In this document: one piece after another, positions 1 through 64,000 of the stretch | Position numbering within the stretch: the stretch's first letter is position 1 | Layout of the letters: each line of letters starts with the position of its first letter | Source of the DNA: Notolepis coatsorum | Lineage: Eukaryota; Chordata; Actinopteri; Aulopiformes; Paralepididae | Direction: 5' to 3' | Length of the DNA: 64,000 nucleotides | Assembly (NCBI GenBank): GCA_963971535.1 | Contig: OZ020586.1 | Coordinates: 76,608,703 to 76,672,702 of the forward strand | The notes under the pieces: generated by a model | The model's database searches: none | The model's input: only the letters and a program-made list of their open reading frames with translations | What the model was told of the DNA's origin: nothing | Made by a program: the position numbers and the translations under genes

Positions 1-493
1 TTTAATATTGTTTGGTTTACCTGGATTTGATGGAATCTGGAAAGAATTTAACACGTTATAATTCAACTAGGCCTCAGAGACAATGTTGGTTCAACTAAAC
101 TGTAGTTATCACGATCAATGAGATATAAATATGTTTTTAAATGTACCTTGACAAAACATTTGTTGGTTGACAAGCAGACTCTAATGTTGGTCTCAATGCT
201 TCTTCCTTTTCCTGACATCAATGCTGCCAATTGTTCCATTATCTGTAGAAAAGTGAAAGAGAATTAGGTATTTGGACATTATGAGGACAGTATGCTATCA
301 TATCACAACATGTTTAACAGTTTAAAGGTTTATAGCTGGTTCTTACCTCAAAGAAGGTGAGCATATTGTCTGGACAGTCTTGGAGGACAAAGGCAATCAT
401 TGCCAGGTAGGTGCTACAATTCTCAAACATCATTTTCCGGGTGCTGTTGGATGTCACATGGAGAGGCAGGGGAGCTCCAAAGTTCTCAGCCAT
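1..493 (-). CDS. foxh1-like: B0: FoxH1-like forkhead gene, B type, cut by the window edge
   Basis: Exon 1 is 493-347 (49 codons), exon 2 is 242-147 (32 codons), and exon 3 starts at 36 and leaves the window after 12 codons. Both introns have GT/AG ends. The start ATG has A at -3 and G at +4. Exon 1 begins MAENFGAPLP and carries the forkhead helix-1 motif TYLAMIAFVLQD. Exon 2 holds the recognition-helix region IRVCLSTNKCFVK. What is visible is intact. Unlike B1-B7, its upstream DNA beyond about 662 is an A-type promoter block with a LINE insertion, so this copy is a promoter chimera. Whether exon 3 is full length cannot be seen. Confidence 0.75.
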
Positions 494-662
494 GTTCTGC
501 TTCTTGTTGGTTGTAGAGTCAAGTCACACAGTGCATCAGAACCTCACTCAGTGGAGCTGTGGACCTGGACTGATGGAGTCCCAGACCTCTGATATAAGTC
601 CTGCCAGAACAATAGAACATTACAAGGTGTGCATTCCAGGTTGATGAGGGCCTTTTCATCTG

Positions 663-1302
663 GATGAGGTGGGGTCTTGATTGATTGATTGATTGAAAAC
701 TTTATTAACAGATTGCAGAATGGGTACAATACAGTACAGCTCAATACACACAATTGTTAAGGGGATGCAGACCAGAGAAAGACTTTCGTCTTGTTTACAT
801 CAGGGTCCCCCATTTTCAATTCATCAGGACATATATGACATACATGACATACAGATAGTCAGTACTGCTACATCTATACATTTATGACATACCAGATTTG
901 CAAATACAGTACTGTTTGTGATACAGAAGGAGTCAAGAAAAGGGAGTATATACATTTGACGTAGAAACTGTACATTGGAGGAGGTTGGGTGGGGGGGGGG
1001 GTCAATGGCCGTCATAACAGCCCACTTCCAACAAACCTATCTGGACCAATGGATGGTGATTGTACTTTTAGCTCTCTCTTACCATACTCTTGGGTTTAAT
1101 ATATTATAGTTTTATTGTCGTGTAAATTGTTTTCCTATATAGACTTGCTCAAACCAAACCTTTTTTGAATGTGTGAAATTCAACTTGAATGAATGAATGA
1201 ATCCTGAAAACATGTCATGGCCTGCCTCCCTGTTGCTCCTTATATATCACTAGTCTGTAGAGCTGCATACAATAGTTTGTTAGCATGGGAGATTTTGGAT
1301 TT
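663..1302 (-). repeat. Inverted copy of the A-gene upstream block
   Basis: This is the near-identical reverse complement of 5577-6216 (paired positions sum to about 6879), that is, the promoter region of A1 including its LINE insertion. It sits in the correct orientation to act as the upstream region of B0. It contains the conserved CCAAT element seen before both gene types. At about 1303 it joins abruptly to a 12-bp scrap of the end of A-type exon 3 (1303-1314). Confidence 0.85.
677..997 (-). mobile_element. LINE 3'-end fragment (or derived SINE), inverted copy
   Basis: This 321-bp insert is flanked by GGGGTC at 671-676 and 998-1003. It has a four-unit GATT repeat followed by AAAACTTTATT, the reverse of AATAAAGTTTT plus (CAAT)n, a tail typical of fish L2/CR1-type non-LTR retrotransposons. 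It is the same insertion as in A1-A6 in inverted orientation, so it was moved by rearrangement, not by a new insertion. The family assignment is tentative. Confidence 0.6.
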
Positions 1303-1876
1303 ATCCTCTACCAATACATTTACAGATTACAATATTTTGATAATGGTTAATATTTTGATAAAAGGTAATTTACTGTATTTGTATGGTATTTACATACTTA
1401 AAGTAGAAAAACAAAAGTAATCTCTAAAATAATACAGTGAAATTCAATTTTTTTAATTTGATTTCTTTTTACAGATTTTTTTACCTGAAACACTGGAGAA
1501 TAACTGCTTCATTTTACTTAGTTTCTTCGGTAGTAATGATATACTGTTGTATTACATTACATCATATATTTATGAATGATGTTGACAGATGGATGGCTGT
1601 ATTACTGAGAATGTAATGAAAGCATAACTCGAAGTGCTTTACAATGAAATAACTGCATATCTTTTTTCAGTATGGGAGAAAAAGTCTAATAATGCTTTTT
1701 ACAAAATTATGCACATCATTCCTGATGAGACTGCTCAATTTGAGGTATTACCAGTGACTGTGGTGCAAAAACTCTGGAGTTTGGGAAGGACTGACGGATG
1801 ATAGTCGCAGCAAAAAATAGACATGTTGGCTAAACCAATTGAATTTGAAGAGTTGTTTCTGCCTCTATTGCATTAT
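1303..1876. repeat. Junction block N1: exon-3 scrap plus right half of the MITE composite and flank
   Basis: After 12 bp of A-type exon 3 (1303-1314) comes the segment that also lies at 3589-4145 in the divergent spacer. It starts inside a MITE-like element (TACATTTACAG) and runs on through non-coding flank. The same block follows every A gene truncated at this breakpoint: 7477, 13589, 19701, 25813, 29653, 35821 and 39396. No canonical AATAAA occurs on either strand within it. I see no gene in it. Confidence 0.8.
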
Positions 1877-1959
1877 TGAGAAAGTTGCGCGTCACGTGCC
1901 TGTCGGGGCCAATCAGGCCTACCCCGGAAGTAACTTACTGTTGCGGATAAGCTATACGC
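1877..1959 (+). promoter_or_regulatory. 83-bp GC-rich filler with E-box, CCAAT and ETS motifs
   Basis: This stretch matches neither the N1 block on its left nor the B gene on its right, and does not occur in the complete B6 and B7 loci. It is GC-richer than its surroundings and contains CACGTG (1893-1898), CCAATCAG (1909-1916) and CCGGAAGT (1924-1931). That combination is typical of TATA-less housekeeping promoters (USF/TFE, NF-Y and ETS/GABP sites). Identical copies lie at 8039-8121, 14151-14233, 20263-20345 and 30215-30297. It supplies the new stop codon of B1-B5. A promoter origin is inferred from motifs only. Confidence 0.45.
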
Positions 1960-2855
1960 TGACTGGCCTGTTTCCAGAACCACTGAGTACATGGTCCACA
2001 CTGCCCCCTGCTGGGTAGAACTGGTCACTTCTACCTGCAGGTTGAAGAATGTGAATCTCCACAGGTGGAGCGTCCCAGCTGAACTTTCTCTTTGTTCCAA
2101 CTCCTTTCTCTGAGCACCATGGCTGCTGTTCTACTCTGACTGGCAGGCTGGAAATACCCAGAGGAGATGGTTTGGAACCCAGGCCAGAGGGACTGTCTTT
2201 CTTCAGGAGCGATTCGATGGAGAAAGGACTGCTGAACTTCACCTCACATTTAATCTGAACATCCAAAATGGAGACCAACTCGGGGAACCAGTCCATAACT
2301 CCCTTGAAGTGACGGCGCACCATCTTCTCTGTGATTTGACTGTGGTCAAGCTTCCAGTAGTTTTTAATATTGTTTGGTTTACCTGGATTTGATGGAATCT
2401 GGAAAGAATTTAACACGTTATAATTCAACTAGGCCTCAGAGACAATGTTGGTTCAACTAAACTGTAGTTATCACGATCAATGAGATATAAATATGTTTTT
2501 AAATGTACCTTGACAAAACATTTGTTGGTTGACAAGCAGACTCTAATGTTGGTCTCAATGCTTCTTCCTTTTCCTGACATCAATGCTGCCAATTGTTCCA
2601 TTATCTGTAGAAAAGTGAAAGAGAATTAGGTATTTGGACATTATGAGGACAGTATGCTATCATATCACAACATGTTTAACAGTTTAAAGGTTTATAGCTG
2701 GTTCTTACCTCAAAGAAGGTGAGCATATTGTCTGGACAGTCTTGGAGGACAAAGGCAATCATTGCCAGGTAGGTGCTACAATTCTCAAACATCATTTTCC
2801 GGGTGCTGTTGGATGTCACATGGAGAGGCAGGGGAGCTCCAAAGTTCTCAGCCAT
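1952..2855 (-). CDS. foxh1-like: B1: FoxH1-like gene, B type, 3'-truncated
   Basis: Exon 1 is 2855-2709, exon 2 is 2604-2509 and exon 3 is 2398-1952; predicted length 229 aa. The forkhead region and the eh1-like FSIESLL (residues about 140-146) are complete. At the C-terminus the native end after GNRPV (KRIRMCANP and on) is replaced by two residues and a stop supplied by the filler. The basic KRIR patch and the native 3' UTR and poly(A) signal are therefore missing. The exon 2 donor is GTACAT here and in B0, but GTAAAT in B2-B7. It converges on A-type DNA to its left and diverges from A1 on its right. Confidence 0.7.
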
Positions 2856-3120: not shown

Positions 3121-3177
3121 GGAAAATACAGGCTCCCAAACATGCTTGTTCAAATCAAACACATCCCTGAATGCTTA

Positions 3178-5873: not shown

Positions 5874-5879
5874 GACCCC

Positions 5880-6201
5880 CCCCCCCCACCCAACCTCCTC
5901 CAATGTACAGTTTCTACGTCAAATGTATATACTCCCTTTTCTTGACTCCTTCTGTATCACAAACAGTACTGTATTTGCAAATCTGGTATGTCATAAATGT
6001 ATAGATGTAGCAGTACTGACTATCTGTATGTCATGTATGTCATATATGTCCTGATGAATTGAAAATGGGGGACCCTGATGTAAACAAGACGAAAGTCTTT
6101 CTCTGGTCTGCATCCCCTTAACAATTATGTGTATTGAGCTGTACTGTATTGTACCCATTCTGCAATCTGTTAATAAAGTTTTCAATCAATCAATCAATCA
6201 A
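5880..6201 (+). mobile_element. LINE 3'-end fragment (or derived SINE) in the A1 promoter
   Basis: This insert is flanked by GACCCC direct repeats (5874-5879 and 6202-6207), read as a target-site duplication. A C-run and CACCCAACCTCCTCC are at its left end, and AATAAAGTTTT plus (CAAT)n at its right end. The empty site is preserved at A7, A8 and A10-A12 as CCATTGACCCCACCTC, which proves insertion. It lies about 180 bp before the ATG and splits the conserved GGGGTCAATGG promoter element. No reverse-transcriptase coding remains. Confidence 0.65.
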
Positions 6202-6388
6202 GACCCCACCTCATCCAGATGAAAAGGCCCTCATCAACCTGGAATGCACACCTTGTAATGTTCTATTGTTCTGGCAGGACTTATATCCAGAAGTCTGGGA
6301 CTCCATCACTCCAGGTCCACAGCTCCACTGAGTGAGGTTCTGATACCACTGTGTGTGACTTGACTCTACAACCAACAAGAAGCAGAAC

Positions 6389-7502
6389 ATGGCTGAGAAC
6401 TTTGGAGCTCCCCTGCCTCTCCATGTGACACCCAACAGCACACAGAAAAAGATGTTTGAGAATTGTAACACCCACCTGGCAATGATTGCCTTTGTCCTCC
6501 AAGACTCTCCAGGCAATATGCTCACCTTCTGTGAGGTAAGAACAAGCAAGCAACATATTAAGTTTCATTTGACTTTAAAAATGTTGTGATGTGAAAGCAA
6601 AATGTCCTTCTAATGTCTGATGATGCCTAATTTTCAATGTAACTTCTTTTGCAGTTGCTGGGAAATTTGGAAGCATTGATCTCAGGAAACAGAAAAGGCC
6701 TTGATGCCAAAATTAGAGTCTGCTTGTCGACCAACAAATGTTTTGTCAAGGTAAATGGAAAAAATCTTTATATCTCATTGATCATGATCACTAATTTAGT
6801 TGAACCAACATAGTTTTGGGTTAAAGATGAATTCTAACTTGTGTGTTCAATTGTTTCCAGATTCCATCAAATCCAGAAAAACCAAACAGTAAGAAAAACT
6901 ACTGGAAGCTTGACCACAGTCAAATTACAGGGAAGATGGTGCGTCGTCACTTCAAGGGAATTCTGGACTGGTTCCCTGAGTTGGTCTCCAAAGTTATGGA
7001 GGCAGTCAGACCATCAGAGCACTACACTACTCTCCACTCCCCTGAACCTGCAGCCTACAGAGATGTTCAGATTAAATGTGAGGTGAAGTTCAGCAGTCCT
7101 TTTTCCATCGAATCCCTCCTGAAGAAAGACAGTCCCTCTGGCCTGGGCTCCAAGCCCTCTCCTCTGTTGGGCATTTCCAGCCTGCCAGTCAGAGTAGAAC
7201 AGCAGCCTTGGTGCTCAGAGAAAGGAGTTGGAACAAAGAGGAAGTTCAGCTGGGACGCTCCACCAGTGGAGATGCACATTCTTCAACCGGCAGGTAGAAG
7301 TTATGCCATCTACCCAGCAGGGGGCAGTGTGGACCATGGACTCAGTGGTTCTGGAAACAGGCCAGTCAAGAGGATTCGTATGTGTGCTGAGCCCTCAACC
7401 CTGATCTACACAAGACCCAGTGTTGCTCCTTATTTTACCAGCCGTCAGAACGGTTATGTCAATTATCCTCTACCAATACATTTACAGATTACAATATTTT
7501 GA
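6389..7502 (+). CDS. foxh1-like: A1: FoxH1-like gene, A type, replaced C-terminus
   Basis: Exon 1 is 6389-6535, exon 2 is 6655-6750 and exon 3 is 6861-7502; introns have GTAAGA and GTAAAT donors and TTTTGCAG and TTTCCAG acceptors. Predicted length is 294 aa. The forkhead region is residues about 26-123, the eh1-like FSIESLL is about 162-168, and a basic KRIR patch is kept near the end. After YVNYPLP the native end is replaced at 7476 by eight residues (IHLQITIF) read from the N1 block. The native 3' UTR and AATAAA are lost. It diverges from B1 and converges on B2, with exon-3 homologies about 0.74 kb apart. Confidence 0.7.
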
Positions 7503-8113
7503 TAATGGTTAATATTTTGATAAAAGGTAATTTACTGTATTTGTATGGTATTTACATACTTAAAGTAGAAAAACAAAAGTAATCTCTAAAATAATACAGT
7601 GAAATTCAATTTTTTTAATTTGATTTCTTTTTACAGATTTTTTTACCTGAAACACTGGAGAATAACTGCTTCATTTTACTTAGTTTCTTCGGTAGTAATG
7701 ATATACTGTTGTATTACATTACATCATATATTTATGAATGATGTTGACAGATGGATGGCTGTATTACTGAGAATGTAATGAAAGCATAACTCGAAGTGCT
7801 TTACAATGAAATAACTGCATATCTTTTTTCAGTATGGGAGAAAAAGTCTAATAATGCTTTTTACAAAATTATGCACATCATTCCTGATGAGACTGCTCAA
7901 TTTGAGGTATTACCAGTGACTGTGGTGCAAAAACTCTGGAGTTTGGGAAGGACTGACGGATGATAGTCGCAGCAAAAAATAGACATGTTGGCTAAACCAA
8001 TTGAATTTGAAGAGTTGTTTCTGCCTCTATTGCATTATTGAGAAAGTTGCGCGTCACGTGCCTGTCGGGGCCAATCAGGCCTACCCCGGAAGTAACTTAC
8101 TGTTGCGGATAAG

Positions 8114-9017
8114 CTATACGCTGACTGGCCTGTTTCCAGAACCACTGAGTACATGGTCCACACTGCCCCCTGCTGGGTAGAACTGGTCACTTCTACCTGC
8201 AGGTTGAAGAATGTGAATCTCCACAGGTGGAGCGTCCCAGCTGAACTTTCTCTTTGTTCCAACTCCTTTCTCTGAGCACCATGGCTGCTGTTCTACTCTG
8301 ACTGGCAGGCTGGAAATACCCAGAGGAGATGGTTTGGAACCCAGGCCAGAGGGACTGTCTTTCTTCAGGAGCGATTCGATGGAGAAAGGACTGCTGAACT
8401 TCACCTCACATTTAATCTGAACATCCAAAATGGAGACCAACTCGGGGAACCAGTCCATAACTCCCTTGAAGTGACGGCGCACCATCTTCTCTGTGATTTG
8501 ACTGTGGTCAAGCTTCCAGTAGTTTTTAATATTGTTTGGTTTACCTGGATTTGATGGAATCTGGAAAGAATTTAACACGTTATAATTCAACTAGGCCTCA
8601 GAGACAATGTTGGTTCAACTAAACTGTAGTTATCACGATCAATGAGATATAAATATGTTTTTAAATTTACCTTGACAAAACATTTGTTGGTTGACAAGCA
8701 GACTCTAATGTTGGTCTCAATGCTTCTTCCTTTTCCTGACATCAATGCTGCCAATTGTTCCATTATCTGTAGAAAAGTGAAAGAGAATTAGGTATTTGGA
8801 CATTATGAGGACAGTATGCTATCATATCACAACATGTTTAACAGTTTAAAGGTTTATAGCTGGTTCTTACCTCAAAGAAGGTGAGCATATTGTCTGGACA
8901 GTCTTGGAGGACAAAGGCAATCATTGCCAGGTAGGTGCTACAATTCTCAAACATCATTTTCCGGGTGCTGTTGGATGTCACATGGAGAGGCAGGGGAGCT
9001 CCAAAGTTCTCAGCCAT
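8114..9017 (-). CDS. foxh1-like: B2: FoxH1-like gene, B type, 3'-truncated
   Basis: Exon 1 is 9017-8871, exon 2 is 8766-8671 and exon 3 is 8560-8114; predicted length 229 aa, with the same replaced C-terminus as B1. The exon 2 donor is GTAAAT, closer to consensus than in B1. Its 3' end faces that of A1; the interval 7503-8113 has no AATAAA on either strand, only one ATTAAA variant on the minus strand. Confidence 0.7.
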
Positions 9018-12000
9018 GTTCTGCTTCTTGTTGGTTGTAGAGTCAAGTCACACAGTGCATCAGAACCTCACTCAGTGGAGCTGTGGACCTGGACTGATGG
9101 AGTCCCAGACCTCTGATATAAGTCCTGCCAGAACAATAGAACATTACAAGGTGTGCATTCCAGGTTGATGAGGGCCTTTTCATCTGGATGAGGTGGGTGG
9201 GGTCAATGGCTGTGATAACAGCCCACTCCTGGACCAATGGATGGTGCTAATCTTTGCTAATATACTTAGTTTAATATAGTGGGGAAAATACAGGCTCCCA
9301 AACATGCTTGTTCAAATCAAACACATCCCTGAATGCTTACACTGTAAAAAATTAATGTTTTTTTCACGGGAAATTAACTGTATTATTTTACAGATTACTT
9401 TTGTTTTTCTACTTAAATGTAAATGCCATAAAAATACAGTAAATTACCTTTTATCAAAAGGCTCCTAAACATGCTTGTTCAAATCAAACACATCCCTGAA
9501 TGCCTACAGTTATTATTTTTTTCATATATTGCTTCAAAATCAATAAGTTGGAAGTTGTATTTGTTGAGACACAGTTTACAAACATCTTCCTTTCGTATAT
9601 ACTGTATATATTATGATGCACAATCCATTCCTCGGATTGTAATGATTGCAATCCTATACACTGTGAAAAAGAAGTCTGTACAAAAAAACTGTAAATGTCT
9701 GGCAGCAACGGTTGTCAAATACTTACTGTTAAATTACAGTAAAATCTAATACATTTACAGATTACAATATTTTGATAATGGTTAATATTTTGATAAAAGG
9801 TAATTTACTGTATTTGTATGGTATTTACATACTTAAAGTAGAAAAACAAAAGTAATCTCTAAAATAATACAGTGAAATTCCATTTTTTTAATTTGATTTC
9901 TTTTTACAGATTTTTTTACCTGAAACACTGGAGAATAACTGCTTCATTTTACTTAGTTTCTTCGGTAGTAATGATATACTGTTGTATTACATTACATCAT
10001 ATATTTATGAATGATGTTGACAGATGGATGGCTGTATTACTGAGAATGTAATGAAAGCATAACTCGAAGTGCTTTACAATGAAATAACTGCATATCTTTT
10101 TTCAGTATGGGAGAAAAAGTCTAATAATGCTTTTTACAAAATTATGCACATCATTCCTGATGAGACTGCTCAATTTGAGGTATTACCAGTGACTGTGGTG
10201 CAAAAACTCTGGAGTTTGGGAAGGACAGACGGATGATAGTCGCAGCAAAAAATAGACATGTTGGCTAAACCAATTGAATTTGAAGAGTTGTTTCTGCCTC
10301 TATTGCATTATATTGCAAGGGAGTTTAATGACATTATCGCATTCTGCAAAAACAAGTAGCCTATCAGAGGATATGGATGAGGTCAAGCTATGATTCCAAA
10401 CATTCCAATGTTATAGTCCCGTGAAATACCGTCCTTGCCGAACTCAATGCCATAGATTCATCATTCAGCCCATTTTACCAGAGGCAATGACGTTTAGATC
10501 AAGGTGAAAATCATTGGAATGTGGGCACGGCCTGTACAGCAATACTCTAGTTTTAAATGCAAATGTGTAATTCACACCTGCCCTCATGTTAACTAAATGT
10601 AGCCCCAATAGCTTCATCATTCAACACATTTGATCTGAGACAATGAAGTTTAGATGGGGTGAAAATCACTGGAATGTGGGCCAAACCATAGTAACACACA
10701 GATTTTGGTTCAACTGATATCAGGCTAAGGTTCACTCAAACTAGATTTTTATCTCAAATGTGATATCCCCAATGCATATAATTTAACATTGAAACATTTT
10801 CTTCTTTGAATTTGAAATATTGTGTAACGTTACCGTTATCTAATTAGTAACTGGCAACTGCAGATGTCTGCCCCATGTCTATACCCCACAATGCAAAGTG
10901 TCTAACGCTATAGCTTAATTGTAGATTCTAAACATAATGAGGTAACGCAGCTACCAAATGTTATCTTTAATCAAAGTGTGTAATGTTAATCCACAACAGC
11001 GACTTTTGGTATATGACATATCAATAGAAATACATTTACAAAAATACAAATGAAATACATTTCAAATTAATTCCACAATTCTTTGCGATAGACTTATATC
11101 AATACACAAACAAATTTAAATTGATGACATTAGATCGGGTGTAGCTAATCTAAATAGTGTGCATCATTTTCAAAACTATATACTGTATTTTGAGAGTAAA
11201 TCAAGCATAATAAACATTCATGTTCTAATGAAGCCTGAGAAACCAAGTTTGCACTTCACCGCATAGGTCCTTGTGAATCGCTAATGTCTATTTTGTAGTT
11301 GTAAACAGTGATCCCCTCATTAAAGTGGCCAATATCTGAAGAGGGCAGTGATGGATGAAGTGTGATTGTTATTATTTAATAAGTATATAGGGTATACAAT
11401 GGAAGGAATTTGTATTTCTTTAGTCTAAGATAGTGATCCATAATCAGAAAATGTCCATATTATTTCAGCTGCTTCTGTTCTAAATACACAGATCGCTATA
11501 GTCTTGGACCGTTATTCATATTCCAATGGTCCCCCTTTATCACTTCCATTGTCCTGTTTAAAGATAGAAAATAAAATTTAAATAAACAAATGAACATGAC
11601 TGAGACCCAGTCTGGTACACATTAATAAACACATGAACAACATACTTCATGCATTTTCCTCTGGAGGGACTGAATACAGTATATTTCTTACTGCTAATCT
11701 GCGATTTTAGGCAATATAGTGTTGCTATAGAAACATGTTTAAGAAATCCAAAATCTCCCATGCTAACAAACTATTGTATGCAGCTCTACAGACTAGTGAT
11801 ATATAAGGAGCAACAGGGAGGCAGGCCATGACATGTTTTCAGGATTCATTCATTCATTCAAGTTGAATTTCACACATTCAAAAAAGGTTTGGTTTGAGCA
11901 AGTCTATATAGGAAAACAATTTACACGACAATAAAACTATAATATATTAAACCCAAGAGTATGGTAAGAGAGAGCTAAAAGTACAATCACCATCCATTGG

Positions 12001-12556: not shown

Positions 12557-13614
12557 ATGGCTGAGAACTTTGGAGCTCCCCTGCCTCTCCATGTGACACC
12601 CAACAGCACACAGAAAAAGATGTTTGAGAATTGTAACACCCACCTGGCAATGATTGCCTTTGTCCTCCAAGACTCTCCAGGCAATATGCTCACCTTCTGT
12701 GAGGTAAGAACAAGCAAGCAACATATTAAGTTTCATTTGACTTTAAAAATGTTGTGATGTGAAAGCAAAATGTCCTTCTAATGTCTGATGATGCCTAATT
12801 TTCAATGTAACTTCTTTTGCAGTTGCTGGGAAATTTGGAAGCATTGATCTCAGGAAACAGAAAAGGCCTTGATGCCAAAATTAGAGTCTGCTTGTCGACC
12901 AACTAATTTAGTTGAACCAACATAGTTTTGGGTTAAAGATGAATTCTAACTTGTGTGTTCAATTGTTTCCAGATTCCATCAAATCCAGAAAAACCAAACA
13001 GTAAGAAAAACTACTGGAAGCTTGACCACAGTCAAATTACAGGGAAGATGGTGCGTCGTCACTTCAAGGGAATTCTGGACTGGTTCCCTGAGTTGGTCTC
13101 CAAAGTTATGGAGGCAGTCAGACCATCAGAGCACTACACTACTCTCCACTCCCCTGAACCTGCAGCCTACAGAGATGTTCAGATTAAATGTGAGGTGAAG
13201 TTCAGCAGTCCTTTTTCCATCGAATCCCTCCTGAAGAAAGACAGTCCCTCTGGCCTGGGCTCCAAGCCCTCTCCTCTGTTGGGCATTTCCAGCCTGCCAG
13301 TCAGAGTAGAACAGCAGCCTTGGTGCTCAGAGAAAGGAGTTGGAACAAAGAGGAAGTTCAGCTGGGACGCTCCACCAGTGGAGATGCACATTCTTCAACC
13401 GGCAGGTAGAAGTTATGCCATCTACCCAGCAGGGGGCAGTGTGGACCATGGACTCAGTGGTTCTGGAAACAGGCCAGTCAAGAGGATTCGTATGTGTGCT
13501 GAGCCCTCAACCCTGATCTACACAAGACCCAGTGTTGCTCCTTATTTTACCAGCCGTCAGAACGGTTATGTCAATTATCCTCTACCAATACATTTACAGA
13601 TTACAATATTTTGA
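12557..13614 (+). pseudogene. foxh1-like: A2: FoxH1-like pseudogene, exon 2 broken
   Basis: Exon 1 (12557-12703) and exon 3 (12973-13614) look normal, but a 56-bp deletion joins exon 2 after CLSTN (12903) to the middle of intron 2. The deletion removes the last five codons of exon 2 and the splice donor. A TAA follows at 12904-12906, giving about 76 aa that end inside the recognition-helix region. Microhomology at the breakpoint is two bases (AC). Skipping exon 2 would keep the frame, as it has 96 nt, but would remove the recognition helix. Confidence 0.8.
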
Positions 13615-14225: not shown

Positions 14226-15129
14226 CTATACGCTGACTGGCCTGTTTCCAGAACCACTGAGTACATGGTCCACACTGCCCCCTGCTGGGTAGAACTGGTC
14301 ACTTCTACCTGCAGGTTGAAGAATGTGAATCTCCACAGGTGGAGCGTCCCAGCTGAACTTTCTCTTTGTTCCAACTCCTTTCTCTGAGCACCATGGCTGC
14401 TGTTCTACTCTGACTGGCAGGCTGGAAATACCCAGAGGAGATGGTTTGGAACCCAGGCCAGAGGGACTGTCTTTCTTCAGGAGCGATTCGATGGAGAAAG
14501 GACTGCTGAACTTCACCTCACATTTAATCTGAACATCCAAAATGGAGACCAACTCGGGGAACCAGTCCATAACTCCCTTGAAGTGACGGCGCACCATCTT
14601 CTCTGTGATTTGACTGTGGTCAAGCTTCCAGTAGTTTTTAATATTGTTTGGTTTACCTGGATTTGATGGAATCTGGAAAGAATTTAACACGTTATAATTC
14701 AACTAGGCCTCAGAGACAATGTTGGTTCAACTAAACTGTAGTTATCACGATCAATGAGATATAAATATGTTTTTAAATTTACCTTGACAAAACATTTGTT
14801 GGTTGACAAGCAGACTCTAATGTTGGTCTCAATGCTTCTTCCTTTTCCTGACATCAATGCTGCCAATTGTTCCATTATCTGTAGAAAAGTGAAAGAGAAT
14901 TAGGTATTTGGACATTATGAGGACAGTATGCTATCATATCACAACATGTTTAACAGTTTAAAGGTTTATAGCTGGTTCTTACCTCAAAGAAGGTGAGCAT
15001 ATTGTCTGGACAGTCTTGGAGGACAAAGGCAATCATTGCCAGGTAGGTGCTACAATTCTCAAACATCATTTTCCGGGTGCTGTTGGATGTCACATGGAGA
15101 GGCAGGGGAGCTCCAAAGTTCTCAGCCAT
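14226..15129 (-). CDS. foxh1-like: B3: FoxH1-like gene, B type, 3'-truncated
   Basis: Exon 1 is 15129-14983, exon 2 is 14878-14783 and exon 3 is 14672-14226. The predicted 229-aa product is open throughout, with the shared artificial C-terminus. It converges on pseudogene A2. Confidence 0.7.
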
Positions 15130-39395: not shown

Positions 39396-39421
39396 TACAT
39401 TTACAGATTACAATATTTTGA
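38308..39421 (+). CDS. foxh1-like: A7: FoxH1-like gene, A type, replaced C-terminus
   Basis: Exon 1 is 38308-38454, exon 2 is 38574-38669 and exon 3 is 38780-39421; predicted 294 aa, all splice sites intact. The promoter lacks the LINE, placing the conserved CCAAT box (38074-38078, inverted) 230 bp before the ATG. The C-terminus is replaced as in A1 and A6. The next gene, A8, follows in the same direction. Confidence 0.7.
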
Positions 39422-44340: not shown

Positions 44341-44357
44341 ATAGTTTGGTTTAATAT

Positions 44358-46996: not shown

Positions 46997-47760
46997 GTAA
47001 ATGGAAAAAATCTTTATATCTCATTGATCATGATCACTAATTTAGTTGAACCAACATAGTTTTGGGTTAAAGATGAATTCTAACTTGTGTGTTCAATTGT
47101 TTCCAGATTCCATCAAATCCAGAAAAACCAAACAGTAAGAAAAACTACTGGAAGCTTGACCACAGTCAAATTACAGGGAAGATGGTGCGTCGTCACTTCA
47201 AGGGAATTCTGGACTGGTTCCCTGAGTTGGTCTCCAAAGTTATGGAGGCAGTCAGACCATCAGAGCACTACACTACTCTCCACTCCCCTGAACCTGCAGC
47301 CTACAGAGATGTTCAGATTAAATGTGAGGTGAAGTTCAGCAGTCCTTTTTCCATCGAATCCCTCCTGAAGAAAGACAGTCCCTCTGGCCTGGGCTCCAAG
47401 CCCTCTCCTCTGTTGGGCATTTCCAGCCTGCCAGTCAGAGTAGAACAGCAGCCTTGGTGCTCAGAGAAAGGAGTTGGAACAAAGAGGAAGTTCAGCTGGG
47501 ACGCTCCACCAGTGGAGATGCACATTCTTCAACCGGCAGGTAGAAGTTATGCCATCTACCCAGCAGGGGGCAGTGTGGACCATGGACTCAGTGGTTCTGG
47601 AAACAGGCCAGTCAAGAGGATTCGTATGTGTGCTGAGGCCTCAACCCTGATCTACACAAGACCCAGTGTTGCTCCTTATTTTACCAGCCGTCAGAACGGT
47701 TATGTAAATTATCCTCTACCAACATATCCCTGTGATGTTAAACGTTATTGTAAAATGTAA
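46997..47760 (+). pseudogene. foxh1-like: A9: FoxH1-like pseudogene, exon 3 only
   Basis: Exon 3 (47107-47760) is complete, with the native end YPCDVKRYCKM and without the 9-nt deletion of A8. Exons 1 and 2 and the promoter are gone: the copy begins with the GTAAAT donor of intron 2 fused to N1 DNA at 46996. It could be expressed only as a downstream exon of another transcript. The AATAAA at 47837-47842 is kept. Confidence 0.8.
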
Positions 47761-49119: not shown

Positions 49120-50192
49120 TTTATTGAAAAAAATATCTTCACAAGAAGGCAAGTATATATATAACATATTTACAGATTATGACATAACACAGGGACATTT
49201 GAGACAGAATAATCGTCCTGGGTTGGAAAGGAGCAATTCTGGGTCTTCAGATCACATAGATCAGGAATGAGGGATTAGCACACATACGAATCCTCTTGAC
49301 TGGCCTGTTTCCAGAACCACTGAGTACATGGTCCACACTGCCCCCTGCTGGGTAGAACTGGTCACTTCTACCTGCAAGTTTAAGAATGTGAATCTCCACA
49401 GGTGGAACGTCCCAGCTGAACTTTCTCTTTGTTCCAACTCCTTTCTCTGAGCACCATGGCTGCTGTTCTACTCTGACTGGCAGGCTGGAAATACCCAGAG
49501 GAGATGGTTTGGAACCCAGGCCAGAGGGACTGTCTTTCTTCAGGAGCGATTCGATGGAGAAAGGACTGCTGAACTTCACCTCACATTTAATCTGAACATC
49601 CAAAATGGAGACCAACTCGGGGAACCAGTCCATAACTCCCTTGAAGTGACGGCGCACCATCTTCTCTGTGATTTGACTGTGGTCAAGCTTCCAGTAGTTT
49701 TTAATATTGTTTGGTTTACCTGGATTTGATGGAATCTGGAAAGAATTTAACACGTTATAATTCAACTAGGCCTCAGAGACAATGTTGGTTCAACTAAACT
49801 GTAGTTATCACGATCAATGAGATATAAATATGTTTTTAAATTTACCTTGACAAAACATTTGTTGGTTGACAAGCAGACTCTAATGTTGGTCTCAATGCTT
49901 CTTCCTTTTCCTGACATCAATGCTGCCAATTGTTCCATTATCTGTAGAAAAGTGAAAGAGAATTAGGTATTTGGACATTATGAGGACAGTATGCTATCAT
50001 ATCACAACATGTTTAATAGTTTAAAGGTTTATAGCTGGTTCTTACCTCAAAGAAGGTGAGCATATTGTCTGGACAGTCTTGGAGGACAAAGGCAATCATT
50101 GCCAGGTAGGTGCTACAATTCTCAAACATCATTTTCCGGGTGCTGTTGGATGTCACATGGAGAGGCAGGGGAGCTCCAAAGTTCTCAGCCAT
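49120..50192 (-). CDS. foxh1-like: B7: full-length FoxH1-like forkhead gene, B type
   Basis: Exon 1 is 50192-50046, exon 2 is 49941-49846 and exon 3 is 49735-49247 (coding end 49247); 243 aa, poly(A) signal at 49125-49120. It keeps NYW in the wing and Glu in MMFENCS, where B6 has changed, so it is the best candidate for a functional B gene in this window. Private changes include Ala to Val (SWDVPPVE) and Gln to Lys (HILKLAG). The promoter shares a 6-bp deletion with B6. Confidence 0.8.
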
Positions 50193-53392: not shown

Positions 53393-54284
53393 ATGGCTGA
53401 GAACTTTGGAGCTCCCCTGCCTCTCCATGTGACACCCAACAGCACACAGAAAAAGATGTTTGATAATTGTAACACCCACCTGGCAATGATTGCCTTTGTC
53501 CTCCAAGACTCTCCAGGCAATATGCTCACCTTCTGTGAGGTAAGAACAAGCAAGCAACATATTAAGTTTCATTTGACTTTAAAAATGTTGTGATGTGAAA
53601 GCAAAATGTCCTTCTAATGTCTGATGATGCCTAATTTTCAATGTAACTTCGTTTGCAGTTGCTGGGAAATTTGGAAGCATTGATCTCAGGAAACAGAAAA
53701 GGCCTTGATGCCAAAATTAGAGTCTGCTTGTCGACCAACAAATGTTTTGTCAAGGTAAATGGAAAAAATCTTTATATCTCATTGATCATGATCACTAATT
53801 TAGTTGAACCAACATAGTTTTGGGTTAAAGATGAATTCTAACTTGTGTGTTCAATTGTTTCCAGATTCCATCAAATCCAGAAAAACCAAACAGTAAGAAA
53901 AACTACTGGAAGCTTGACCACAGTCAAATTACAGGGAAGATGGTGCGTCGTCACTTCAAGGGAATTCTGGACTGGTTCCCTGAGTTGGTCTCCAAAGTTA
54001 TGGAGGCAGTCAGACCATCAGAGCACTACACTACTCTCCACTCCCCTGAACCTGCAGCCTACAGAGATGTTCAGATTAAATGTGAGGTGAAGTTCAGCAG
54101 TCCTTTTTCCATCGAATCCCTCCTGAAGAAAGACAGTCCCTCTGGCCTGGGCTCCAAGCCCTCTCCTCTGTTGGGCATTTCCAGCCTGCCAGTCAGAGTA
54201 GAACAGCAGCCTTGGTGCTCAGAGAAAGGAGTTGGAACAAAGAGGAAGTTGCTAATCTTTGCTAATATACTTAGTTTAATATAG
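53393..54284 (+). CDS. foxh1-like: A10: FoxH1-like gene, A type, truncated at a second breakpoint
   Basis: Exon 1 is 53393-53539, exon 2 is 53659-53754 and exon 3 is 53865-54284; predicted 220 aa. Exon 3 breaks after GVGTKRK (54250), where it joins the upstream region of a B gene (GCTAATCTTTGC), adding LLIFANILSLI and a stop. The forkhead region and FSIESLL remain; the last third of exon 3, the KRIR patch and the poly(A) signal are gone. Shares MFDNC with A8 and the TTCGTTTGCAG acceptor with A6 and A7. Confidence 0.7.
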
Positions 54285-57200
54285 TGGGAAAATACAGGCT
54301 CCTAAACATGCTTGTTCAAATCAAACACATCCCTGAATGCTTACACTGTAAAAAATTAATGTTTTTTTCACTGGAAATTAACTGTATTATTTTACAGATT
54401 ACTTTTGTTTTTCTACTTAAATGTAAATGCCATACAAATACAGTAAATTACCTTTTATCAAAAGGCTCCTAAACATGCTTGTTCAAATCAAACACATCCC
54501 TGAATGCCTACAGTTATTATTTTTTTCATATATTGCTTCAAAATCAATAAGTTGGAAGTTGTATTTGTTGAGACACAGTTTACAAACATCTTCCTTTCGT
54601 ATATACTGTATATATTATGATGCACAATCCATTCCTCGGATTGTAATGATTGCAATCCTATACACTGTTTTGATAATGGTTAATATTTTGATAAAAGGTA
54701 ATTTACTGTATTTGTATGGTATTTACATACTTAAAGTAGAAAAACAAAAGTAATCTCTAAAATAATACAGTGAAATTCAATTTTTTTAATTTGATTTCTT
54801 TTTACAGATTTTTTTACCTGAAACACTGGAGAATAACTGCTTCATTTTACTTAGTTTCTTCGGTAGTAATGATACTGTTGTATTACATTACATCATATAT
54901 TTATGAATGATGTTGACAGATGGATGGCTGTATTACTGAGAATGTAATGAAAGCATAACTCGAAGTGCTTTACAATGAAATAACTGCATATCTTTTTTCA
55001 GTATGGGAGAAAAAGTCTAATAATGCTTTTTACAAAATTATGCACATCATTCCTGATGAGACTGCTCAATTTGAGGTATTACCAGTGACTGTGGTGCAAA
55101 AACTCTGGAGTTTGGGAAGGACAGACGGATGATAGTCGCAGCAAAAAATAGACATGTTGGCTAAACCAATTGAATTTGAAGAGTTGTTTCTGCCTCTATT
55201 GCATTATATTGCAAGGGAGTTTAATGGCATTATCGCATTCTGCAAAAACAAGTAGCCTATCAGAGGATATGGATGAGGTCAAGCTATGATTCCAAACATT
55301 CCAATGTTATAGTCCCGTGAAATACCGTCCTTGCCGAACTCAATGCCATAGATTCATCATTCAGCCCATTTTACCAGAGGCAATGACGTTTAGATCAAGG
55401 TGAAAATCATTGGAATGTGGGCACGGCCTGTACAGCAATACTCTAGTTTTAAATGCAAATGTGTAATTCACACCTGCCCTCATGTTAACTAAATGTAGCC
55501 CCAATAGCTTCATCATTCAACACATTTGATCTGAGACAATGAAGTTTAGATGGGGTGAAAATCACTGGAATGTGGGCCAAACCATTGTAACACACAGATT
55601 TTGGTTCAACTGATATCAGGCTAAGGTTCACTCAAACTAGATTTTTATCTCAAATGTGATATCCCCAATGCATATAATTTAACATTGAAACATTTTCTTC
55701 TTTGAATTTGAAATATTGTGTAACGTTACCGTTATCTAATTAGTAACTGGCAACTGCAGATGTCTGCCCCATGTCTATACCCCACAATGCAAAGTGTCTA
55801 ACGCTATAGCTTAATTGTAGATTCTAAACATAATGAGGTAACGCAGCTACCAAATGTTATCTTTAATCAAAGTGTGTAATGTTAATCCACAACAGCGACT
55901 TTTGGTATATGACATATCAATAGAAATACATTTACAAAAATACAAATGAAATACATTTCAAATTAATTCCACAATTCTTTGCGATAGACTTATATCAATA
56001 CACAAACAAATTTAAATTGATGACATTAGATCGGGTGTAGCTAATCTAAATAGTGTGCATCATTTTCAAAACTATATACTGTATTTTGAGAGTAAATCAA
56101 GCATAATAAACATTCATGTTCTAATGAAGCCTGAGAAACCAAGTTTGCACTTCACCGCATAGGTCCTTGTGAATAGCTAATGTCTATTTTGTAGTTGTAA
56201 ACAGTGATCCCCTCATTAAAGTGGCCAATATCTGAAGAGGGCAGTGATGGATGAAGTGTGATTGTTATTATTTAATAAGTATATAGGGTATACAATGGAA
56301 GGAATTTGTATTTCTTTAGTCTAAGATAGTGATCCATAATCAGAAAATGTCCATATTATTTCAGCTGCTTCTGTTCTAAATACACAGATCGCTATAGTCT
56401 TGGACCGTTATTCATATTCCAATGGTCCCCCTTTATCACTTCCATTGTCCTGTTTAAAGATAGAAAATAAAATTTAAATAAACAAATGAACATGACTGAG
56501 ACCCAGTCTGGTACACATTAATAAACACATGAACAACATACTTCATGCATTTTCCTCTGGAGGGACTGAATACAGTATATTTCTTACTGCTAATCTGCGA
56601 TTTTAGGCAATATAGTGTTGCTATAGAAACATGTTTAAGAAATCCAAAATCTCCCATGCTAACAAACTATTGTATGCAGCTCTACAGACTAGTGATATAT
56701 AAGGAGCAACAGGGAGGCAGGCCATGACATGTTTTCAGGATTCATTCATTCATTCAAGTTGAATTTCACACATTCAAAAAAGGTTTGGTTTGAGCAAGTC
56801 TATATAGGAAAACAATTTACACGACAATAAAACTATAATATATTAAACCCAAGAGTATGGTAAGAGAGAGCTAAAAGTACAATCACCATCCATTGGTCCA
56901 GATAGGTTTGTTGGAAGTGGGCTGTTATGACGGCCATTGACCCCACCTCATCCAGATGAAAAGGCCCTCATCAACCTGGAATGCACACCTTGTAATGTTC
57001 TATTGTTCTGGCAGGACTTATATCCATAAGTCTGGGACTCCATCACTCCAGGTCCACAGCTCCACTGAGTGAGGTTCTGATACCACTGTGTGTGACTTGA
57101 CTCTACAACCAACAAGAAGCAGAACATGGCTGAGAACTTTGGAGCTCCCCTGCCTCTCCATGTGACACCCAACAGCACACAGAAAAAGATGTTTGATAAT

Positions 57201-57983
57201 TGTAACACCCACCTGGCAATGATTGCCTTTGTCCTCCAAGACTCTCCAGGCAATATGCTCACCTTCTGTGAGGTAAGAACAAGCAAGCAACATATTAAGT
57301 TTCATTTGACTTTAAAAATGTTGTGATGTGAAAGCAAAATGTCCTTCTAATGTCTGATGATGCCTAATTTTCAATGTAACTTCGTTTGCAGTTGCTGGGA
57401 AATTTGGAAGCATTGATCTCAGGAAACAGAAAAGGCCTTGATGCCAAAATTAGAGTCTGCTTGTCGACCAACAAATGTTTTGTCAAGGTAAATGGAAAAA
57501 ATCTTTATATCTCATTGATCATGATCACTAATTTAGTTGAACCAACATAGTTTTGGGTTAAAGATGAATTCTAACTTGTGTGTTCAATTGTTTCCAGATT
57601 CCATCAAATCCAGAAAAACCAAACAGTAAGAAAAACTACTGGAAGCTTGACCACAGTCAAATTACAGGGAAGATGGTGCGTCGTCACTTCAAGGGAATTC
57701 TGGACTGGTTCCCTGAGTTGGTCTCCAAAGTTATGGAGGCAGTCAGACCATCAGAGCACTACACTACTCTCCACTCCCCTGAACCTGCAGCCTACAGAGA
57801 TGTTCAGATTAAATGTGAGGTGAAGTTCAGCAGTCCTTTTTCCATCGAATCCCTCCTGAAGAAAGACAGTCCCTCTGGCCTGGGCTCCAAGCCCTCTCCT
57901 CTGTTGGGCATTTCCAGCCTGCCAGTCAGAGTAGAACAGCAGCCTTGGTGCTCAGAGAAAGGAGTTGGAACAAAGAGGAAGTT
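54251..57983. repeat. Tandem unit of the second A-only class (3,733 bp)
   Basis: B-promoter fragment, shortened MITE composite (54344-54807, with its middle removed at CTATACACTG/TTTTGATAATGG near 54668), N1, N2, promoter without LINE, A11. The next unit starts at 57984. Confidence 0.92.
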
Positions 57984-58017
57984 GCTAATCTTTGCTAATA
58001 TACTTAGTTTAATATAG
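57126..58017 (+). CDS. foxh1-like: A11: FoxH1-like gene, A type, truncated at the second breakpoint
   Basis: Exon 1 is 57126-57272, exon 2 is 57392-57487 and exon 3 is 57598-58017; predicted 220 aa, same replacement tail as A10. All landmarks are exactly 3,733 bp from A10. Confidence 0.7.
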
Positions 58018-61000
58018 TGGGAAAATACAGGCTCCTAAACATGCTTGTTCAAATCAAACACATCCCTGAATGCTTACACTGTAAAAAATTAATGTTTTTT
58101 TCACTGGAAATTAACTGTATTATTTTACAGATTACTTTTGTTTTTCTACTTAAATGTAAATGCCATACAAATACAGTAAATTACCTTTTATCAAAAGGCT
58201 CCTAAACATGCTTGTTCAAATCAAACACATCCCTGAATGCCTACAGTTATTATTTTTTTCATATATTGCTTCAAAATCAATAAGTTGGAAGTTGTATTTG
58301 TTGAGACACAGTTTACAAACATCTTCCTTTCGTATATACTGTATATATTATGATGCACAATCCATTCCTCGGATTGTAATGATTGCAATCCTATACACTG
58401 TTTTGATAATGGTTAATATTTTGATAAAAGGTAATTTACTGTATTTGTATGGTATTTACATACTTAAAGTAGAAAAACAAAAGTAATCTCTAAAATAATA
58501 CAGTGAAATTCAATTTTTTTAATTTGATTTCTTTTTACAGATTTTTTTACCTGAAACACTGGAGAATAACTGCTTCATTTTACTTAGTTTCTTCGGTAGT
58601 AATGATACTGTTGTATTACATTACATCATATATTTATGAATGATGTTGACAGATGGATGGCTGTATTACTGAGAATGTAATGAAAGCATAACTCGAAGTG
58701 CTTTACAATGAAATAACTGCATATCTTTTTTCAGTATGGGAGAAAAAGTCTAATAATGCTTTTTACAAAATTATGCACATCATTCCTGATGAGACTGCTC
58801 AATTTGAGGTATTACCAGTGACTGTGGTGCAAAAACTCTGGAGTTTGGGAAGGACAGACGGATGATAGTCGCAGCAAAAAATAGACATGTTGGCTAAACC
58901 AATTGAATTTGAAGAGTTGTTTCTGCCTCTATTGCATTATATTGCAAGGGAGTTTAATGGCATTATCGCATTCTGCAAAAACAAGTAGCCTATCAGAGGA
59001 TATGGATGAGGTCAAGCTATGATTCCAAACATTCCAATGTTATAGTCCCGTGAAATACCGTCCTTGCCGAACTCAATGCCATAGATTCATCATTCAGCCC
59101 ATTTTACCAGAGGCAATGACGTTTAGATCAAGGTGAAAATCATTGGAATGTGGGCACGGCCTGTACAGCAATACTCTAGTTTTAAATGCAAATGTGTAAT
59201 TCACACCTGCCCTCATGTTAACTAAATGTAGCCCCAATAGCTTCATCATTCAACACATTTGATCTGAGACAATGAAGTTTAGATGGGGTGAAAATCACTG
59301 GAATGTGGGCCAAACCATTGTAACACACAGATTTTGGTTCAACTGATATCAGGCTAAGGTTCACTCAAACTAGATTTTTATCTCAAATGTGATATCCCCA
59401 ATGCATATAATTTAACATTGAAACATTTTCTTCTTTGAATTTGAAATATTGTGTAACGTTACCGTTATCTAATTAGTAACTGGCAACTGCAGATGTCTGC
59501 CCCATGTCTATACCCCACAATGCAAAGTGTCTAACGCTATAGCTTAATTGTAGATTCTAAACATAATGAGGTAACGCAGCTACCAAATGTTATCTTTAAT
59601 CAAAGTGTGTAATGTTAATCCACAACAGCGACTTTTGGTATATGACATATCAATAGAAATACATTTACAAAAATACAAATGAAATACATTTCAAATTAAT
59701 TCCACAATTCTTTGCGATAGACTTATATCAATACACAAACAAATTTAAATTGATGACATTAGATCGGGTGTAGCTAATCTAAATAGTGTGCATCATTTTC
59801 AAAACTATATACTGTATTTTGAGAGTAAATCAAGCATAATAAACATTCATGTTCTAATGAAGCCTGAGAAACCAAGTTTGCACTTCACCGCATAGGTCCT
59901 TGTGAATAGCTAATGTCTATTTTGTAGTTGTAAACAGTGATCCCCTCATTAAAGTGGCCAATATCTGAAGAGGGCAGTGATGGATGAGGTGTGATTGTTA
60001 TTATTTAATAAGTATATAGGGTATACAATGGAAGGAATTTGTATTTCTTTAGTCTAAGATAGTGATCCATAATCAGAAAATGTCCATATTATTTCAGCTG
60101 CTTCTGTTCTAAATACACAGATCGCTATAGTCTTGGACCGTTATTCATATTCCAATGGTCCCCCTTTATCACTTCCATTGTCCTGTTTAAAGATAGAAAA
60201 TAAAATTTAAATAAACAAATGAACATGACTGAGACCCAGTCTGGTACACATTAATAAACACATGAACAACATACTTCATGCATTTTCCTCTGGAGGGACT
60301 GAATACAGTATATTTCTTACTGCTAATCTGCGATTTTAGGCAATATAGTGTTGCTATAGAAACATGTTTAAGAAATCCAAAATCTCCCATGCTAACAAAC
60401 TATTGTATGCAGCTCTACAGACTAGTGATATATAAGGAGCAACAGGGAGGCAGGCCATGACATGTTTTCAGGATTCATTCATTCATTCAAGTTGAATTTC
60501 ACACATTCAAAAAAGGTTTGGTTTGAGCAAGTCTATATAGGAAAACAATTTACACGACAATAAAACTATAATATATTAAACCCAAGAGTATGGTAAGAGA
60601 GAGCTAAAAGTACAATCACCATCCATTGGTCCAGATAGGTTTGTTGGAAGTGGGCTGTTATGACGGCCATTGACCCCACCTCATCCAGATGAAAAGGCCC
60701 TCATCAACCTGGAATGCACACCTTGTAATGTTCTATTGTTCTGGCAGGACTTATATCCATAAGTCTGGGACTCCATCACTCCAGGTCCACAGCTCCACTG
60801 AGTGAGGTTCTGATACCACTGTGTGTGACTTGACTCTACAACCAACAAGAAGCAGAACATGGCTGAGAACTTTGGAGCTCCCCTGCCTCTCCATGTGACA
60901 CCCAACAGCACACAGAAAAAGATGTTTGATAATTGTAACACCCACCTGGCAATGATTGCCTTTGTCCTCCAAGACTCTCCAGGCAATATGCTCACCTTCT

Positions 61001-61716
61001 GTGAGGTAAGAACAAGCAAGCAACATATTAAGTTTCATTTGACTTTAAAAATGTTGTGATGTGAAAGCAAAATGTCCTTCTAATGTCTGATGATGCCTAA
61101 TTTTCAATGTAACTTCGTTTGCAGTTGCTGGGAAATTTGGAAGCATTGATCTCAGGAAACAGAAAAGGCCTTGATGCCAAAATTAGAGTCTGCTTGTCGA
61201 CCAACAAATGTTTTGTCAAGGTAAATGGAAAAAATCTTTATATCTCATTGATCATGATCACTAATTTAGTTGAACCAACATAGTTTTGGGTTAAAGATGA
61301 ATTCTAACTTGTGTGTTCAATTGTTTCCAGATTCCATCAAATCCAGAAAAACCAAACAGTAAGAAAAACTACTGGAAGCTTGACCACAGTCAAATTACAG
61401 GGAAGATGGTGCGTCGTCACTTCAAGGGAATTCTGGACTGGTTCCCTGAGTTGGTCTCCAAAGTTATGGAGGCAGTCAGACCATCAGAGCACTACACTAC
61501 TCTCCACTCCCCTGAACCTGCAGCCTACAGAGATGTTCAGATTAAATGTGAGGTGAAGTTCAGCAGTCCTTTTTCCATCGAATCCCTCCTGAAGAAAGAC
61601 AGTCCCTCTGGCCTGGGCTCCAAGCCCTCTCCTCTGTTGGGCATTTCCAGCCTGCCAGTCAGAGTAGAACAGCAGCCTTGGTGCTCAGAGAAAGGAGTTG
61701 GAACAAAGAGGAAGTT
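57984..61716. repeat. Second 3,733-bp unit
   Basis: Shortened MITE composite 58077-58540, N1, N2, promoter, A12. Nearly identical to the previous unit; one visible difference is GATGAGGTG near 59983 versus GATGAAGTG. Confidence 0.92.
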
Positions 61717-61750
61717 GCTAATCTTTGCTAATATACTTAGTTTAATATAG
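60859..61750 (+). CDS. foxh1-like: A12: FoxH1-like gene, A type, truncated at the second breakpoint
   Basis: Exon 1 is 60859-61005, exon 2 is 61125-61220 and exon 3 is 61331-61750; predicted 220 aa. Same structure as A10 and A11. The array evidently continues beyond the window. Confidence 0.7.
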
Positions 61751-64000
61751 TGGGAAAATACAGGCTCCTAAACATGCTTGTTCAAATCAAACACATCCCT
61801 GAATGCTTACACTGTAAAAAATTAATGTTTTTTTCACTGGAAATTAACTGTATTATTTTACAGATTACTTTTGTTTTTCTACTTAAATGTAAATGCCATA
61901 CAAATACAGTAAATTACCTTTTATCAAAAGGCTCCTAAACATGCTTGTTCAAATCAAACACATCCCTGAATGCCTACAGTTATTATTTTTTTCATATATT
62001 GCTTCAAAATCAATAAGTTGGAAGTTGTATTTGTTGAGACACAGTTTACAAACATCTTCCTTTCGTATATACTGTATATATTATGATGCACAATCCATTC
62101 CTCGGATTGTAATGATTGCAATCCTATACACTGTTTTGATAATGGTTAATATTTTGATAAAAGGTAATTTACTGTATTTGTATGGTATTTACATACTTAA
62201 AGTAGAAAAACAAAAGTAATCTCTAAAATAATACAGTGAAATTCAATTTTTTTAATTTGATTTCTTTTTACAGATTTTTTTACCTGAAACACTGGAGAAT
62301 AACTGCTTCATTTTACTTAGTTTCTTCGGTAGTAATGATACTGTTGTATTACATTACATCATATATTTATGAATGATGTTGACAGATGGATGGCTGTATT
62401 ACTGAGAATGTAATGAAAGCATAACTCGAAGTGCTTTACAATGAAATAACTGCATATCTTTTTTCAGTATGGGAGAAAAAGTCTAATAATGCTTTTTACA
62501 AAATTATGCACATCATTCCTGATGAGACTGCTCAATTTGAGGTATTACCAGTGACTGTGGTGCAAAAACTCTGGAGTTTGGGAAGGACAGACGGATGATA
62601 GTCGCAGCAAAAAATAGACATGTTGGCTAAACCAATTGAATTTGAAGAGTTGTTTCTGCCTCTATTGCATTATATTGCAAGGGAGTTTAATGGCATTATC
62701 GCATTCTGCAAAAACAAGTAGCCTATCAGAGGATATGGATGAGGTCAAGCTATGATTCCAAACATTCCAATGTTATAGTCCCGTGAAATACCGTCCTTGC
62801 CGAACTCAATGCCATAGATTCATCATTCAGCCCATTTTACCAGAGGCAATGACGTTTAGATCAAGGTGAAAATCATTGGAATGTGGGCACGGCCTGTACA
62901 GCAATACTCTAGTTTTAAATGCAAATGTGTAATTCACACCTGCCCTCATGTTAACTAAATGTAGCCCCAATAGCTTCATCATTCAACACATTTGATCTGA
63001 GACAATGAAGTTTAGATGGGGTGAAAATCACTGGAATGTGGGCCAAACCATTGTAACACACAGATTTTGGTTCAACTGATATCAGGCTAAGGTTCACTCA
63101 AACTAGATTTTTATCTCAAATGTGATATCCCCAATGCATATAATTTAACATTGAAACATTTTCTTCTTTGAATTTGAAATATTGTGTAACGTTACCGTTA
63201 TCTAATTAGTAACTGGCAACTGCAGATGTCTGCCCCATGTCTATACCCCACAATGCAAAGTGTCTAACGCTATAGCTTAATTGTAGATTCTAAACATAAT
63301 GAGGTAACGCAGCTACCAAATGTTATCTTTAATCAAAGTGTGTAATGTTAATCCACAACAGCGACTTTTGGTATATGACATATCAATAGAAATACATTTA
63401 CAAAAATACAAATGAAATACATTTCAAATTAATTCCACAATTCTTTGCGATAGACTTATATCAATACACAAACAAATTTAAATTGATGACATTAGATCGG
63501 GTGTAGCTAATCTAAATAGTGTGCATCATTTTCAAAACTATATACTGTATTTTGAGAGTAAATCAAGCATAATAAACATTCATGTTCTAATGAAGCCTGA
63601 GAAACCAAGTTTGCACTTCACCGCATAGGTCCTTGTGAATAGCTAATGTCTATTTTGTAGTTGTAAACAGTGATCCCCTCATTAAAGTGGCCAATATCTG
63701 AAGAGGGCAGTGATGGATGAAGTGTGATTGTTATTATTTAATAAGTATATAGGGTATACAATGGAAGGAATTTGTATTTCTTTAGTCTAAGATAGTGATC
63801 CATAATCAGAAAATGTCCATATTATTTCAGCTGCTTCTGTTCTAAATACACAGATCGCTATAGTCTTGGACCGTTATTCATATTCCAATGGTCCCCCTTT
63901 ATCACTTCCATTGTCCTGTTTAAAGATAGAAAATAAAATTTAAATAAACAAATGAACATGACTGAGACCCAGTCTGGTACACATTAATAAACACATGAAC
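61717..64000. repeat. Third 3,733-bp unit, cut by the window edge
   Basis: Shortened MITE composite 61810-62273, N1 and most of the N2 spacer. By analogy the next A gene would begin about 590 bp past the right edge. No gene within the visible part. Confidence 0.9.

Follow-up and report, generated by a model that had tools for sequence, protein, structure and literature searches.

The DNA analysed here, hereafter the window, is a 64,000-nucleotide (nt) stretch of contig OZ020586.1 (C7; positions 76,608,703-76,672,702) in the 3.42 Gb, 4,787-contig assembly of Notolepis coatsorum. It is occupied by copies of a three-exon gene that encodes a fast-evolving, diverged relative of the forkhead protein FoxH1. 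Two types of the gene were distinguished. A blastn search using an exon of each type located 12 A copies, which all lie on the plus strand, and 8 B copies, which all lie on the minus strand; the first B copy is cut at the left window edge, and its exon 3 was found in the neighbouring 10 kb (L012). The initial annotation had described a 20-copy amplification with no other gene. The count holds for the content of the window but not for the size of the array, which has more than 100 exon-1 copies on C7. All 19 open reading frames (ORFs) of at least 120 amino acids (aa) belong to the array gene and the Rfam scan of the window returned zero families above threshold, in agreement with the second statement. 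The array is real, striking and larger than first reported, and it is a FoxH1-derived family, not an amplified foxh1.

Exon 1 has at least 126 matches in the assembly, every one on C7 (genome match counts for exons are lower bounds). At least 106 exon-1 copies are stop-free and retain at least 47 of 49 residues, namely 51 A copies, all plus, and 55 B copies, all minus. These complete or nearly complete copies span C7 76,582,339-77,133,777, about 0.55 Mb, and along the chromosome their neighbour order is 33 AB, 32 BA, 22 BB and 18 AA. Exon 3 gave 198 matches at E<=0.01, and the 150 matches listed are all on C7.

Several periods are mixed within the window; one run of A exon-1 starts is spaced at 6112 bp and a second at 3733 bp. 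The periods of 6112, 3574 and 3733 bp are exact and nearly free of differences, as in 3 mismatches over 13.5 kb. Among the window copies, compared over the first part of exon 3, identity is 99.5-100% between A copies (66 pairs), 99.3-100% between B copies (21 pairs, from seven of the eight B copies) and 92.1-92.7% between A and B (84 pairs). The values within each type are consistent with the very recent amplification that had been proposed. The accompanying description of the array as palindrome-rich needs correcting: the inverted arms in the window, which consist of the gene and some flank, are short (about 0.8-1.3 kb) and 86-93% alike rather than long and near-identical. Separately, a stretch of about 320 bp just 5' of A (window 5880-6201 and similar places), ending in AATAAA and TCAATCAATC repeats, is found in some units and missing from others, and it resembles a transposon insertion.

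In the A gene model (exons as in the first row of Table 1), the introns have GT/AG boundaries and lie in phase 0. The fullest A protein is 298 aa long, a composite of window exons 1-2 and the exon 3 of L013, and the B protein has 243 aa. Among the 12 A copies of the window, seven have three open exons that can be spliced, encoding 294 aa (three copies), 295 aa (one) or 220 aa (three); four have lost the exon-2 donor through a short deletion, and one is exon 3 only. The window contains seven of the eight B copies in full, and these are open (five of 229 aa, two of 243 aa); the eighth runs off the edge.

The spliced A protein matches the Pfam forkhead profile PF00250 with 36.4 bits (5.8e-9) and the spliced B protein with 37.6 bits (2.3e-9), above the cut-off of 27; single exons stayed below threshold, and only the spliced protein scored. 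The search of the genome with PF00250 did not list the array exons, so profile searches of this kind miss the family. Ranked against PDB, the array protein found three FoxH1 chains first (2.3e-12 to 6.5e-10), followed by HNF-3-type forkheads (6.4e-8 and weaker). In a tree of 23 forkhead rows, from which a near copy (L006), two partial sequences (L043, L048) and one with a stop (L045) were left out, A and B group with four FoxH1 rows with support of 99/98, under a long-branch warning and an unsettled bootstrap. Both introns of the array gene occupy the same aligned positions, in phase 0, as those of the ordinary foxh1 on contig C29. The resulting split of the forkhead at profile positions 29 and 64 was shown only by the C29 foxh1 pair in the genome search, which also returned seven FoxO-like split pairs, a set that points to a teleost; one of them (L038) was compared with a FoxO string. 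The original designation as a FoxH1-like forkhead is supported by profile, structure ranking, tree and intron positions, and the array proteins are forkheads that group with FoxH1.

The suggestion that the single-copy regulator foxh1 itself had been amplified is not supported: the ordinary foxh1 sits on C29 (37,145,000-37,172,000; L009-L011) as two tandem copies, 18.4 kb apart, whose blast pieces are 96.5-99.2% identical. The C29 protein has 528 aa, with helix 3, eh1 and a PPNK-containing C-terminus intact, and A shares 36% identity with it across the forkhead (BLASTP). The array gene is a strongly diverged FoxH1 relative and not foxh1 itself. A search of the open-access literature found no report of a FoxH1 array or a FoxH1-like expansion.

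Asp143, Arg146 and His147 of helix 3 have been named as the major-groove contacts of FoxH1 (PMC9701222). At the aligned positions the array proteins carry Ala/Arg/Val in A and Thr/Arg/Val in B, so that one of the three contacts is kept. The forkhead has further lost its KPPYSY start and three residues ahead of helix 3. The PPNK stretch, part of the C-terminal SMAD-interaction region of FoxH1, is present in C29 foxh1 and was found in neither A (298 aa) nor B (243 aa). Both types carry FSIESLL, a putative eh1 motif that MAFFT aligns to FAIDSLL of C29 foxh1 (FAIDSLLH); the eh1 of zebrafish FoxH1 is given as FAIDSLLH in PMC1939712. PMC6664792 reports that the FoxH1 eh1 mediates Nodal-independent repression via Groucho/TLE.

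Differences between the types were counted per region by comparing a single A copy (L013) with a single B copy (L037). From -180 to the ATG there are 5 in 176 bases, in exon 1 10 in 147, in exon 2 18 in 96, and in introns 1 and 2 28 in 104 and 16 in 106 (15-27%). Exon 3 differs at 40 of 489 positions up to the B stop and at 54 of 166 just beyond it. Over the 162 codons of exon 3 compared, the nonsynonymous rate (dN) is 0.072 and the synonymous rate (dS) 0.20, a ratio of 0.36 (Fisher p 0.0011). Coding gaps up to the B stop are two, of 66 and 3 nt, both in-frame, and a 6-nt gap falls on the B stop; seven gaps lie in the introns (10, 2, 3, 1, 2, 1 and 4 nt), mostly not multiples of 3. When neutral substitution was simulated with no indels, both reading frames stayed open in 2.7% of 20,000 runs. 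Because of the low dN/dS, the in-frame-only coding gaps and the rarity of open frames under neutrality, the coding sequence of exon 3 has been constrained during much of the time since A and B separated, and the forkhead half has not.

With moderate confidence, we favour a functional coding family that unites FoxH1 descent, the copy structure, the loss of DNA contacts and SMAD region, the retention of eh1, the constraint on exon 3 and the conservation of the proximal promoter. Several observations weigh against it. Five of the 12 window A copies are unable to make the three-exon protein, and in exons 1 and 2, which encode most of the forkhead, dN exceeds dS (ratios of 2.45 and 3.12 on few changes, 24 vs about 3). 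The excess is not significant (pooled p 0.22), and these two exons seem to be either free of constraint or diversifying. The array branch in the forkhead tree is very long (1.73 changes/site), and BLASTP of A against C29 foxh1 gave no significant match outside the forkhead. The eh1 assignment draws on the motif and the MAFFT alignment and is that of a candidate, and the low promoter divergence between A and B could stem from gene conversion instead of selection.

The family may have started from a long-diverged foxh1 paralogue arranged as an inverted pair, with A on one strand and B on the other. Repeated unequal exchange would have expanded this pair to more than 100 copies on one chromosome, and homogenisation within each type would have left the A copies, and the B copies, nearly uniform. 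The proteins would be made in the germline or early embryo, probably at a high dose set by copy number. They would no longer read FoxH1 sites (TGTGKATT), and the eh1-bearing C-terminal half might bind Groucho/TLE corepressors. Such a protein could act as a decoy, relieving FoxH1 targets of repression, or be a repressor tethered through another partner. This TLE/Groucho-binding mechanism is held with low confidence. More doubtful still is the full proposal, in which a foxh1-derived, multi-copy, DNA-contact-poor, SMAD-blind, corepressor-binding protein would serve as a lineage-specific Groucho/TLE brake or decoy in oocytes and early embryos, or as a selfish maternal-effect or drive element.

A plain dominant-negative FoxH1 role was considered and is weakened by the experiments described in PMC6664792. 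There, FoxH1 forms without the Smad-interaction domain (SID) or without DNA binding show dominant interference with miR-430 repression, and a SID-less forkhead with a DNA-binding mutation has no major effect. The role is disfavoured because the array protein lacks both the SMAD region and the DNA contacts, like the ineffective form. A miR-430c string, from the one isoform searched, gave no matches, which speaks neither for nor against a link to miR-430.

The alternative that survives best is that the array is largely a functionless, gene-derived tandem repeat multiplied by recombination, with the A/B coding constraint predating the amplification; we regard this as somewhat unlikely. Broken copies have indeed spread with their units, as with the exon-2 deletion in four window A copies and the 220-aa truncation in three. 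An exon-3 frameshift is common to the edge copies L029, L031, L032, L034 and L035, and chimeric tails are common. Against this stand the 106 complete or nearly complete exon-1 copies, all stop-free, the seven open B copies in the window (the eighth being edge-cut) and the seven open, spliceable A copies. These open frames are not decisive, because very recent copying alone would keep them open.

A sex-linked or drive-related amplicon, with copy number selected via sex-chromosome transmission or sex determination, is improbable. The array resembles such amplicons in its many copies, its inverted pairs and its restriction to a single chromosome, and FoxH1 of the ricefield eel is described (PMC10531137) as more expressed in the ovary and as repressing the cyp19a1a promoter. 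However, the short window arms are unlike near-identical long palindromes, and unlike fresh sex-chromosome palindromes the inverted copies are of old date, A and B being about 92-93% identical in exon 3 and much less so in the introns. Nor does a second contig carry the array, the 126 exon-1 matches all being on C7.

That a few copies were falsely multiplied by the assembly is very improbable. The exact periods with almost no differences are hard to assemble, and the number of units may be wrong locally. The array nevertheless holds many distinguishable unit types (six distinct A gene sequences among 11 in the window), several spacings, degraded edge copies and divergence between A and B, a diversity that could not arise from one or two genes. 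Amplification of a working foxh1 to raise Nodal-effector dosage would fit the FoxH1 descent of the array gene, but it is scarcely credible, given that the array protein has lost the SMAD-interaction region along with two of the three base contacts in helix 3, and that the ordinary foxh1 exists on C29.

The array protein shares with FoxH1, the Nodal/SMAD2 partner, the remnant of the forkhead fold, the intron positions and phase, a KP..K.N(F/Y)W stretch and an eh1 after the forkhead. It differs in having lost the equivalents of Asp143 and His147, the KPPYSY start and the PPNK/SMAD region, and in its 243-298 aa and more than 100 copies, compared with 528 aa for foxh1 of this genome. Xenopus FoxH3 (XFast-3) is likewise a diverged FoxH paralogue; PMC1939712 states that it lost eh1 and predicts that Smads are the only partners through which it acts. 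In the array protein the situation is reversed, with eh1 kept and the Smad region lost. Local multiplication of early-embryo genes is known from the Nodal-pathway ligand clusters of Xenopus (nodal3/5, vg1). Those clusters encode ligands, whereas the present array is a transcription-factor derivative with an A-plus/B-minus arrangement and probably a higher copy number. FoxH1 is described in PMC9701222 as an essential maternal pioneer factor. A lineage with foxh1 plus a multiplied relative without the SMAD region and most DNA contacts would offer a natural experiment on what the eh1/Groucho half of FoxH1 does alone, and on whether arrays of variable copy number can adjust early patterning or skew transmission. 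The array is also a clean case for the study of concerted evolution, because copies of one orientation have been homogenised (99-100%) and inverted partners remain about 8% apart in exon 3.

Table 1. Copies of the array gene and the A promoter-proximal block in the window (window coordinates).
Feature	Position	Strand	Details
A copy	6389-7502	+	exons 6389-6535, 6655-6750, 6861-7502; 294 aa, last residues altered
A copy, broken	12557-13614	+	exon-2 end and donor deleted
A copy, broken	18669-19726	+	exon-2 end and donor deleted; 6112-bp period
A copy, broken	24781-25838	+	exon-2 end and donor deleted
A copy, broken	28621-29678	+	exon-2 end and donor deleted
A copy	34733-35846	+	three open exons, 294 aa
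A copy	38308-39421	+	three open exons, 294 aa
A copy	41883-42999	+	all exons open, the third from 42355; 295 aa, C-terminal end like fullest copies
A copy, exon 3 only	47107-47760	+	exons 1 and 2 absent
A copy	53393-54284	+	exon 3 shortened, 220 aa; 3733-bp period
A copy	57126-58017	+	exon 3 shortened, 220 aa
A copy	60859-61750	+	exon 3 shortened, 220 aa
B copy, cut by left window edge	1-493	-	exon 3 runs on into L012
B copy	1952-2855	-	three open exons, 229 aa
B copy	8114-9017	-	three open exons, 229 aa
B copy	14226-15129	-	three open exons, 229 aa
B copy	20338-21241	-	three open exons, 229 aa
B copy	30290-31193	-	three open exons, 229 aa
B copy	44485-45430	-	three open exons, 243 aa
B copy	49247-50192	-	three open exons, 243 aa
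A promoter-proximal block	6209-6388	+	almost unchanged in B (of 176 bases aligned between the A and B copies compared, 5 differ); TTATAT at -108, judged TATA-like by eye

A Pfam scan of three spacer ORFs in the window gave one match, below threshold. It belongs to a 57-aa spacer ORF, repeated at window 7790-7963 and 10063-10236, and points to a transposase helix-turn-helix (0.091).

Outside the main span there are degraded array fragments, some of them in opposite orientation (76.43, 76.56 and 76.57 Mb), and a single, decayed copy stands by itself 8 Mb away on C7, at 68.32 Mb (L026, 68,324,000-68,329,000; exon 1 at 68,320,576). The left flank holds a beta-catenin exon at about 76.4226 Mb (L024:1582-1728; best PDB match 7e-19, vs 6e-16 for plakoglobin). 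About 8 kb separate it from the first array fragment to its right, and 160 kb from the first exon-1 copy that is complete. It is the nearest recognised gene on this side, the interval of 76.432-76.58 Mb between having been sampled in small pieces. Array fragments also occur in L051-L053, at the right edge, past it and in the copy-free middle, together with ORFs judged by eye, not by search, to be retrotransposon-like.

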